Part shown: piece by piece, positions 2,643 through 5,811 of the stretch
How positions within the stretch are numbered: position 1 is the stretch's first letter
Layout of the letters: each line of letters starts with the position of its first letter
Origin: Cytophagales bacterium
GTDB lineage: Bacteria; Bacteroidota; Bacteroidia; Cytophagales; MED-G16
Reading direction: 5' to 3'
Assembly: GCA_029940715.1 (NCBI GenBank)
Contig: JAPYTU010000003.1
Location: 1 to 40,292 of the forward strand
Length of the DNA: 40,292 nt
Position numbers and translations under genes: made by a program
The notes under the pieces: generated by a model
What the model saw: the letters and a program-made list of their open reading frames with translations, nothing else
Told to the model about the DNA's origin: nothing
Databases searched by the model: none

Positions 2643-3557
2643 ATGAATCTTAATGTAAAAAATGAAACAGATACATTGGTATCTGTTGTATTAGGAATAG
2701 CAGAGAATTTAGGCCCCAAACCAACAATAGAAAATTGTATTGATCCAAAAACAAAATTTCATATATTAAACAATACATACCCAAAAGAAGATGACTGCAT
2801 AAAAGAAATTGAAAATTTTAAAAACGTATTAAAAAAACATAATATTAACGTTTTAAGGCCTAAGAATAACATCCAAGCTCTAAATCAAATTTTTACAAGA
2901 GACATATCTTTTGTTGTTGAAAATAAATTATTTATACCTGAAATAATTAAAGAAAGAAATAATGAAAAAAATGGAATAAATTCAATAATTGATAATCTTA
3001 GAAATGATCAAAAAATAATTATACCAAAACATATCAAAATTGAAGGAGGAGACATAATACTTAATGATGAATTCATTTTTATTGGATATACTGAAAATAA
3101 TAAATATGTTAATTTAAAAGTATCTAGAACGAATAAAGAATCCCTTGACTACATACAAGAGCAATTTCCAGATAAAACAATAATTGGTATTAAATTGATA
3201 AAAAATGATAAAGACCCTAAAAATAATATATTACATCTTGACTGTACAATGCAACCAATTGGTAATAAAAAAATAATCATATATGAAAATGGCATTTATG
3301 ATAAAAAAGATAGAGATACAATATATGAGATCTATGGAGAAAAGAATTTAGTAAAAATAAATCAAGAAGAAATGTATGAGGGGTGTTCAAATATTTTTTC
3401 AATCAATAAAAAAACTATCGTTTCTGATACAACATTTACTAGACTAAATGAGGAGCTTGAAAGACTAAATTTTTTAATTGAAAAAGTAAATTATAGAGAA
3501 ATATCAAAATTTGGAGGATTATTTAGATGTAGTACTTTACCATTAGAAAGAAAGTAA
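2643..3557 (+). CDS. Arginine deiminase/dimethylargininase-like protein (amidinotransferase fold)
   Basis: Motifs FTRD, EGGD, HLDCTMQPIG and C-terminal catalytic Cys in FRCSTLPLER. Confidence 0.75.
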   Translation: MNLNVKNETDTLVSVVLGIAENLGPKPTIENCIDPKTKFHILNNTYPKEDDCIKEIENFKNVLKKHNINVLRPKNNIQALNQIFTRDISFVVENKLFIPEIIKERNNEKNGINSIIDNLRNDQKIIIPKHIKIEGGDIILNDEFIFIGYTENNKYVNLKVSRTNKESLDYIQEQFPDKTIIGIKLIKNDKDPKNNILHLDCTMQPIGNKKIIIYENGIYDKKDRDTIYEIYGEKNLVKINQEEMYEGCSNIFSINKKTIVSDTTFTRLNEELERLNFLIEKVNYREISKFGGLFRCSTLPLERK

Positions 3558-3576: not shown

Positions 3577-3597
3577 ATTAAATTAATATAATTTAAT
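3577..3597. repeat. AT-only inverted repeat ATTAAATTA-ata-TAATTTAAT
   Basis: Perfect 9-bp arms with 3-bp spacer, 7 bp upstream of the left direct repeat. Confidence 0.5.
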
Positions 3598-3603
3598 ATA
3601 TTG

Positions 3604-3627
3604 CAGGATACATTATAGGATACATAA
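3604..3627 (+). repeat. Left 24-bp direct repeat of the integrase unit
   Basis: caggatacattataggatacataa; the start codon of the integrase-like ORF follows immediately (ATG 3628). Confidence 0.95.
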
Positions 3628-4797
3628 ATGAAAATTCAAATTTGGAGAAGAAAAAATAAAGAAAAAGAAAAATATAATTTATACATCAGATACAGACTAA
3701 GTCAGATAAAAGCAAAAGTTGAAAGCTTAAAATTATGGGAGTGGATTTCACCTAACAATATTAGCCAAAAAGAACATAATTTAAATGTCAAAAGAGCATA
3801 TGAGGAAATTCTTAGGAGAAAAAAAGACGATCTTGAAAATAATAGAAGTAAAATAGATTTTAACAGCAAACAGTCAGATGAATTTGAATTTATTTTTAAA
3901 AAATATTCAAAAATTAAAAATTATAATGCTGTATTTAATTTTCTAAAAAAAATTGACTATAACATAGAAAAGAAAAAAATAAATTCAATCAACAAAACTT
4001 ATTTGAATCAATTAAAATATAAAATAGAAAATAAAATCAAAAATAATAATATAAAAGGAACTACATCTGCAAAATATTGGAATAATTTTAAAAGTGTACT
4101 AATACATTTAAATGATAACGGTATTTGTGACTACCCAAGAGTTGGAGGAATTACTTATAAAAAAGAAAACTCTAAAATTTATACCTTTAATAGTGAAGAA
4201 ATAAAAAAACTTAGAAAATCTACTCCAGAAAAATGGAAAGACTTAAAAAAAGCATTTTTCTTTTCATATAACACGGGACTAAAAATAGGTAAGATTGTAA
4301 AATTAAAATGGAAAAATTTATATAAAACAAATAATGATAAAAAAACAATACATTATTTTAAAATCAATAATAATAATGAGACATTAACAAACTCATTACC
4401 AAAAAATATTAGAAAAATGATTGGAAAAAGAAAATCTAATAATGAATTGGTATTCACATTACCAGAAAAACAATCAAATAGATCAAAAATATTTAGAGAG
4501 TGGTTGAATAAATTAAATATCAATGAAAAGAAAAAATTTAATGATGGAGTAAATAATTATGCAAAAAATTTATATGATAAAACAAAAAATATTTACAAAG
4601 TAGCTTCAGCATTAGGACACAATTCTATCAACAAAACAAAAGAAATTTATAACTATATGGAAAATTATGATTTTCTAGAAAATGAAAATATTATAATAGA
4701 AAATTTAGAAGAAAATATAAATCAAACTAAAAGTAAATCTCTATTTAAAAAAGGTAATCTATTAAGTTATAGAATAAAAAAAAATCAGGATACATGA
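3628..4797 (+). CDS. Degenerate tyrosine recombinase/phage-integrase-like protein (SAM-like N-terminal domain)
   Basis: LKLWEWISPNNISQKEHN (Bacteroidota integrase N-terminal pattern), FFFSYNTGLKIGKIVKLKW (box I), VASALGHNSINKTKEIYNYM (LGH...Y). Canonical box I Arg and HxxR are substituted. Confidence 0.75.
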   Translation: MKIQIWRRKNKEKEKYNLYIRYRLSQIKAKVESLKLWEWISPNNISQKEHNLNVKRAYEEILRRKKDDLENNRSKIDFNSKQSDEFEFIFKKYSKIKNYNAVFNFLKKIDYNIEKKKINSINKTYLNQLKYKIENKIKNNNIKGTTSAKYWNNFKSVLIHLNDNGICDYPRVGGITYKKENSKIYTFNSEEIKKLRKSTPEKWKDLKKAFFFSYNTGLKIGKIVKLKWKNLYKTNNDKKTIHYFKINNNNETLTNSLPKNIRKMIGKRKSNNELVFTLPEKQSNRSKIFREWLNKLNINEKKKFNDGVNNYAKNLYDKTKNIYKVASALGHNSINKTKEIYNYMENYDFLENENIIIENLEENINQTKSKSLFKKGNLLSYRIKKNQDT

Positions 4798-4809
4798 TAG
4801 GATACATAA
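4786..4809 (+). repeat. Right 24-bp direct repeat of the integrase unit
   Basis: caggatacatgataggatacataa; one mismatch to 3604-3627; contains the integrase-like ORF's stop codon. Confidence 0.95.
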
Positions 4810-4869: not shown

Positions 4870-5811
4870 ATGAACTTTTCACAAATCACATCAAGTTTAA
4901 TAATGGTTAAACCTAAACACTTTAACTATAACAAAGAGACAGCAAATAATAACCATTTTCAAAAAGAAGAAAAAATCTTAAATAAAAATGAGATTCAACT
5001 AAAAGCAATTGAAGAATTTGAAAAAATGGTTGAAATAATTAGAAAAGAAAAAATTGAAATTCATGTTTTTAATGATAGAGATAATATAAAGACAACAGAT
5101 AGTATTTTTCCAAATAATTGGATAACTCTACATGAAGATGGAACGGTCATAATATATCCGATGTTCTCAAAAAATAGAAGAAAGGAAAAAAGAAAAGATT
5201 TAACAGAAAAATTGAAAAATAAAGGATATAATATTAACAAAATTATTGACTTATCAAGTTATGAAAAGAAAAAACAATATCTTGAAGGTACTGGAAGCAT
5301 GATACTTGATAGAAAAAACAAAATATGTTATGCCGCATTATCTAAAAGAACAAATGAAATTGTCTTAAATCAACTCTGTAAACTTATAAATTACAAACTT
5401 TTAAAATTTAAAGCATACCAATCTTATAAAAATAAAAGAAAATTAATATATCACACAAATGTTATGATGTGTTTAGCTGATGAATATGCAATAATATGCT
5501 TAGAAAGTATTGATGATGAAAGTGAAAAAAAATTACTAATTAAAAGTCTAAATAATACCAAAAAACAAATAATTGAAATTTCCGAAGGGCAATGCAAAAA
5601 TTTTGTGGGAAATATGCTTCAAGTAAAAAATAAAAAAAATAACAAATACTTAATTATGAGTGAAACAGCTAATAAAAGTCTCAATTTATCTCAAAAAAAA
5701 TCACTTGAAAAATACAATAAATTATTATACAGTAACATAAAATTAATAGAAAAAATAGGAGGGGGTGGGGCAAGATGCATGATTGCAGAAAACTTTTTAC
5801 AAAAAGAATAA
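4870..5811 (+). CDS. CtlX-like citrulline hydrolase / amidinotransferase-fold protein
   Basis: SIFPNNWITLHEDGTVIIYPM, GTGSMILDR, HTNVMMCLAD, GGGGARCMIAE (catalytic Cys) fit CtlX-type proteins. Confidence 0.75.
   Translation: MNFSQITSSLIMVKPKHFNYNKETANNNHFQKEEKILNKNEIQLKAIEEFEKMVEIIRKEKIEIHVFNDRDNIKTTDSIFPNNWITLHEDGTVIIYPMFSKNRRKEKRKDLTEKLKNKGYNINKIIDLSSYEKKKQYLEGTGSMILDRKNKICYAALSKRTNEIVLNQLCKLINYKLLKFKAYQSYKNKRKLIYHTNVMMCLADEYAIICLESIDDESEKKLLIKSLNNTKKQIIEISEGQCKNFVGNMLQVKNKKNNKYLIMSETANKSLNLSQKKSLEKYNKLLYSNIKLIEKIGGGGARCMIAENFLQKE

Follow-up and report, generated by a model that had tools for sequence, protein, structure and literature searches.

In a 40,292-nucleotide stretch of DNA from a Cytophagales bacterium (the whole of which we call the window), an integrase-like gene lies between two paired DNA repeats at a locus that is fixed throughout a marine bacterial family. 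The gene has lost catalytic residues, it evolves under purifying selection, and its flanking repeats are conserved and nearly exclusive to it. Our confidence is evenly divided over the reading that we favor, in which the product is a recombination-dead, domesticated integrase that binds the flanking sites, controlling its own gene and perhaps also the operon that it interrupted. We place somewhat short of even confidence the broader proposal that the whole family has co-opted a bacterial integrase as a self-contained local regulator of itself and of an arginine/citrulline operon that it once interrupted.

Paired direct repeats flank an integrase-like gene

The gene (positions 3628 to 4797, plus strand) runs from ATG to TGA and encodes a protein of 389 amino acids, identified as a tyrosine recombinase (integrase) by a PF00589 match (E 5e-11) and an AlphaFold2 model. 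It is bracketed by two 24-mers, CAGGATACATTATAGGATACATAA at 3604 to 3627 on the left and CAGGATACATGATAGGATACATAA at 4786 to 4809 on the right. The first-pass annotation had described these repeats as matching at 23 of 24 positions in the same orientation with a spacing of 1182 bp, the ATG at 3628 abutting the left copy and the TGA stop (4795 to 4797) lying inside the right copy; all of this proved exact. It had overlooked that the integrase lacks most catalytic residues and that each 24-mer contains two AGGATACAT units in direct tandem, spaced at a 12-bp period, at 3605 to 3613 and 3617 to 3625 in the left site and at 4787 to 4795 and 4799 to 4807 in the right site, which overlaps the stop codon (both sites on the plus strand). 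Each 24-mer correspondingly holds two AGGATACA units 12 bp apart. Just 5' of the left site is a weak promoter-like TATATTG (3597 to 3603, plus strand).

With up to 3 mismatches allowed, the 24-mer has two matches in the window and none in 100 dinucleotide shuffles. Its 23-base core, searched with up to 2 mismatches in the whole 1.62-Mb, AT-rich genome, is found only at these two places.

The locus is fixed across the family

To this genome we compared its relatives, in a sample of 15 genomes of a Cytophagales-like marine family; the family mates are marine metagenome-assembled genomes (MAGs) and single-cell genomes labelled Marinoscillum, Flammeovirgaceae or MED-G19. In all 15, the integrase gene occupies one locus, downstream of an arginine-deiminase-like gene (ADI; 2643 to 3557 in the window, plus strand; PF02274) and upstream of ctlX, which encodes a citrulline utilization hydrolase (4870 to 5811, plus strand; NF046062 above its cut-off) and is followed by ridA and then gltX. 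ADI is the neighbor in 15/15 genomes and ctlX in the 14 with complete loci; G003 has a fragment, since contig C43 ends inside the gene. Because the left site and the start codon are both on that contig, G003 is ruled out as an empty site. A full-length protein, 41 to 51% identical, is encoded in 14 of the 15 genomes. Each genome carries the gene as one copy at one locus with no second copy, the distances from the integrase to its neighbors are near-constant among complete loci, and no empty site occurs within the 15 genomes of the family.

In an outgroup family, f2 (G034, G049, and G063), ADI and ctlX are adjacent, and the 35- to 46-nt gap between them contains neither an integrase nor GGATAC. 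The common locus in 15/15 genomes, together with this adjacency in the outgroup, indicates a single arrival of the unit, followed by fixation; the simplest history is one insertion in the family ancestor and then mostly vertical inheritance. Variable location, multiple copies, and empty sites, the marks of an active mobile element, were all missing from the family, and ADI-ctlX adjacency was seen only in the other family.

Small clades in the integrase tree agree with those in the neighbor trees, but G006 takes a different place, and full congruence with the neighbors is rejected, mainly on account of this genome (AU p 0.015). Some allele exchange is likely, given this conflict. At L055 (G006), the integrase-like gene clusters with a different clade than its neighbors do, and the nucleophile position is Phe; allele exchange is possible at this locus.

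Further upstream in the window, the gene preceding ADI (1440 to 2639) has a C-terminal match to DUF5001 in Pfam. This gene is missing at the locus in G002, G004, G010, G011, and G013, where a lipase-like gene adjoins ADI.

Catalytic residues are lost and the N-terminal domain is preserved

Pfam detects only the catalytic (CAT) domain, PF00589, in the window protein. The AlphaFold2 model (pLDDT 79) predicts a beta-beta-beta-alpha N-terminal domain, a helical core-binding (CB) domain, a catalytic domain, and a disordered tail, and it matches the folds of XerH, Tn1549 Int, and lambda Int, with XerH the best match. Homologue alignment and models assign codons 1 to 75 (3628 to 3852, plus strand), the most conserved part of the protein, to an arm-DNA-binding (AB) domain. 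This N terminus aligns with those of homologues, and both homologues scanned score PF17293 (Arm-DNA-bind_5). The family members' own N terminus falls below detection by Pfam's AB model, and the AB domain model alone gives no significant match against the PDB. The PF00589 match, the three-domain model, and the alignment to PF17293-bearing homologues together describe an AB + CB + CAT architecture.

The catalytic site has changed in nearly every family member. The box-I Arg is present in 26/26 active-type homologues versus 0/14 family members, which have Lys, Ser, or an unread residue; in the window this position is Lys, codon 219 (4282 to 4284, plus strand). The His-x-x-Arg motif, replaced in the window by Asn-Asp-Gly-Val at codons 305 to 308 (4540 to 4551, plus strand), is absent from 13 of the 14 members, and the QxKT Lys-beta motif is degraded. 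The nucleophile Tyr is retained in 13/14, including the window (codon 341, 4648 to 4650, plus strand), with Phe in G006. The family as a whole thus lacks the full catalytic RKHRH pentad plus Tyr. G001 comes closest, with His-x-x-Arg, Gly-His, and Tyr in place and Ser at box I, its only departure from the set; judged by these residues, its integrase might be active. Because the presence of His-x-x-Arg was the criterion by which the homologues were gathered, the contrast at box I is the only one that this choice does not bias. In the Tn1549 integrase, changing the box-I Arg to Lys inactivates the enzyme (PMC5871717), but the active CTnDOT integrase has no box-I Arg and uses another Arg instead (PMC8138268), and the case for inactivity therefore rests mainly on the loss of His-x-x-Arg.

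The integrase-like gene is under purifying selection, with dN/dS of 0.11 to 0.35, somewhat above that of its neighbors, and the reading frame is intact in 14/14 complete copies. In most close pairs, dN/dS is lowest in the AB domain. Mean pairwise identity within the family is 64% for the AB domain versus 43% for the catalytic domain, with AB higher in 99% of pairs, whereas among 23 active-type homologues the values are 36% versus 44%, with AB higher in 23% of pairs. The gene and its flanking repeats are clearly preserved by selection, and the gene combines lost catalytic residues, purifying selection, and a fixed orthologous locus, as domesticated recombinases do.

In five genomes (L054, L056, L058, L061, and L063), the integrase-like gene apparently starts with TTG rather than ATG. 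Such starts would fit low expression.

The flanking sites are conserved as DNA

Each of the 14 complete-locus genomes contains the pattern GGATAC-N6-GGATAC at two positions only, one on each side of the integrase gene. The only exception is one additional match in G011, unrelated to the locus, and the reversed control pattern has 0 matches in the 14 genomes. The first-pass annotation had advised a search of related genomes for the 24-mer beside this gene family; with the GGATAC-N6-GGATAC pattern, site pairs bracket the gene in 14/14. Two copies per genome rule out a dispersed genomic repeat; because the site pair is found nowhere else in the genomes, a wider regulon is not seen. Site identity between genomes is 81 to 86%, versus 41 to 45% for the neighboring 30 nt, and the distance between the two pairs is near-constant at about 1.15 to 1.18 kb. 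Inside each genome, the left and right spacers differ. The left site of G003 has one mismatch in its second unit.

The right site is preserved at the DNA level, and the reading frame through it varies among genomes: that of G011 is shifted and ends earlier, and those of G008 and G014 read through. Since the site is kept despite these differing frames, protein-level conservation is rejected as the cause of the right repeat. At L058 (G009), the right site consists of three 12-bp units rather than the usual two. The first, which lies in the coding part, has decayed to AAGATACA, and the pair has apparently been re-made further downstream.

In 10/14 genomes, the motif TATTTT[TA][GA] is found no more than 25 nt before the left site, versus 1.1 expected from shuffles. 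The 88 nt that follow the right site contain it in 1/14, and the window's own TATATTG, at or near the corresponding position, is only a partial match. TATTTT[TA][GA] resembles the -7 element of Bacteroidota promoters.

No crossover core (inverted arms around a spacer, common to both ends) is conserved outside the GGATAC pairs, as far as visual inspection and identity values show. In sequence, the pairs resemble arm-type binding sites that have lost their recombination half to decay. They are direct pairs with a 12-bp period, as arm-type sites are, rather than an inverted-repeat crossover site, and their form therefore does not suggest recombination between the repeats.

Proposed working of the unit and alternatives

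We propose that in the family's ancestor a single insertion placed a mobile element, with its AB-domain tyrosine integrase, between the ADI-like gene and ctlX, and that the element became fixed. Recombination would then have been lost, leaving the catalytic residues gone and the crossover site not conserved, and the arm-site-binding half would have been kept in the form of the AB domain and the two repeat pairs. From the retention of the arm-binding half and the loss of the recombining half, we infer that the protein binds the two flanking sites. Binding to the left pair, which overlaps the gene's own predicted transcription start and its start codon, would repress transcription of the integrase. 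The protein may also bind the right pair behind its own gene; there it might limit transcription into ctlX-ridA-gltX, either by obstructing it directly or by bridging to the left pair so that a 1.2-kb loop forms. Several integrases repress their own promoter.

A dead integrase could instead have an architectural role, bridging the site pairs to hold a DNA loop or to mark a chromosomal position. The purifying selection on CB and CAT despite lost catalysis would suit multimer formation, and two site pairs kept about 1.15 to 1.18 kb apart would fit such a role, but a left site that overlaps a promoter-like motif and the start codon is needless for pure structure, and there is only one such locus per genome. 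We regard a purely architectural role as unlikely. We give slightly less weight still to a reading in which some other factor recognizes the repeats, either as operators or as RNA elements such as mRNA processing or translation signals, with the integrase gene regulated and its product non-binding. In its favor, both sites have the same orientation and fall in presumably transcribed gaps, and on the left an AGGA precedes the start codon at a distance suited to ribosome binding. However, no start codon lies behind the right copy, the pairs flank this gene and no other (bar the one unrelated match in G011), and their invariable 12-bp-period pairing resembles arm-type sites.

The first-pass annotation had seen in the unit a minimal self-contained element, or a fixed relic of one, in which recombination between the repeats would release a circle of about 1.18 kb. 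Direct repeats at both ends fit a functional mobile element or excision switch, in all or some lineages, as does G001, whose Ser at box I is also found in the active CTnDOT integrase. We nevertheless consider this very improbable. The family has a single copy at one locus in 15/15 genomes and no empty site, His-x-x-Arg is lost in 13/14, and these three facts make excision of a 1.18-kb circle unlikely; further, the repeats are not an inverted crossover site, and the left and right spacers differ in each genome. One locus in every relative and no empty sites, across the 15 genomes compared, is also the outcome that the annotation had itself set against its interpretation. For the lineage of the window, the fixed locus and lost catalysis rule out an excisable 1.18-kb element, and the unit is probably not a working element. 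The word "fixed" stands and "relic" does not: a functionless, decaying relic would explain the lost catalytic residues and a protein that diverges faster than its neighbors, but it is scarcely credible for a gene with an intact frame in 14/14, dN/dS of 0.11 to 0.35, and a selectively preserved AB domain and sites.

Relation to known recombinases

The recombination-dead integrase that we favor resembles, in its ancestry, the IntCTnDOT subgroup (CTnDOT and NBU1; PMC8138268), although its catalytic residues no longer match those of active members. Both belong to Bacteroidota and share the AB + CB + CAT order, and the box-I Arg is weakly conserved in the subgroup and absent from the CTnDOT integrase itself (PMC8138268). 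The AB domain of the CTnDOT integrase binds subterminal arm sites (PMC8138268); direct-repeat pairs of suitable form are present here as candidate sites. In contrast to that subgroup, the family has lost His-x-x-Arg in 13/14 members, has no convincing conserved replacement for the box-I Arg, and carries the gene without a surrounding element, fixed across the whole family.

Domestication of tyrosine recombinases is already known from the Crypton-derived DUF3504 genes of animals, which have lost most of the R-H-R-Y tetrad, are host-fixed and under selection, and in many cases are transcriptional regulators (PMC3212892). The family gene shares the lost catalytic residues, fixation in the host, and selection. 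The Crypton-derived genes differ in being eukaryotic, fused to other domains, and without recognizable binding sites, which makes the exapted part hard to test there, whereas the family gene stands alone with both candidate sites preserved. The Tn1549 integrase mutant R225K has the box-I Arg-to-Lys change seen in most family members, retains DNA binding, and serves as an inactive control (PMC5871717); it is a laboratory mutant, engineered in an otherwise intact mobile-element integrase.

Within a literature search that covered an open-access subset, the passages matched by keyword in a review of prokaryotic exaptations (PMC8987985) name integrases that regulate by excising and integrating DNA, and none of these passages presents a catalytically dead case. 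A peptide-pattern scan of IMG/VR returned no related viral integrases, phage records gave weak CAT-domain matches only, and the matches listed for the GGATACANNNNAGGATACA pattern in IMG/VR are about as many as chance could give for 15 specified bases in so large a collection.

An integrase between direct repeats, then, need not mean a moving element. Here an entire bacterial family has kept the gene together with its candidate sites, an outgroup has the flanking genes adjacent and lacks the insert, and G001 may hold an intermediate stage. If our proposal is true, the conversion of a mobile element's integrase into a host regulator can be tested directly.

Single-recombinase Xer/dif systems such as XerH/difH, which provide the best fold match, likewise place the recombinase gene beside its sites. 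The sites here are direct rather than inverted and lie on both sides of the gene, and typical Xer-like genes are found elsewhere in the genome. Xer/dif is ruled out on these grounds, as two direct-repeat pairs take the place of a single inverted-repeat dif. A second Xer-like recombinase, at G000:C33:2412-3076 (L065, L067), is apparently split over two frames, which appears to be either an assembly error or a true frameshift.
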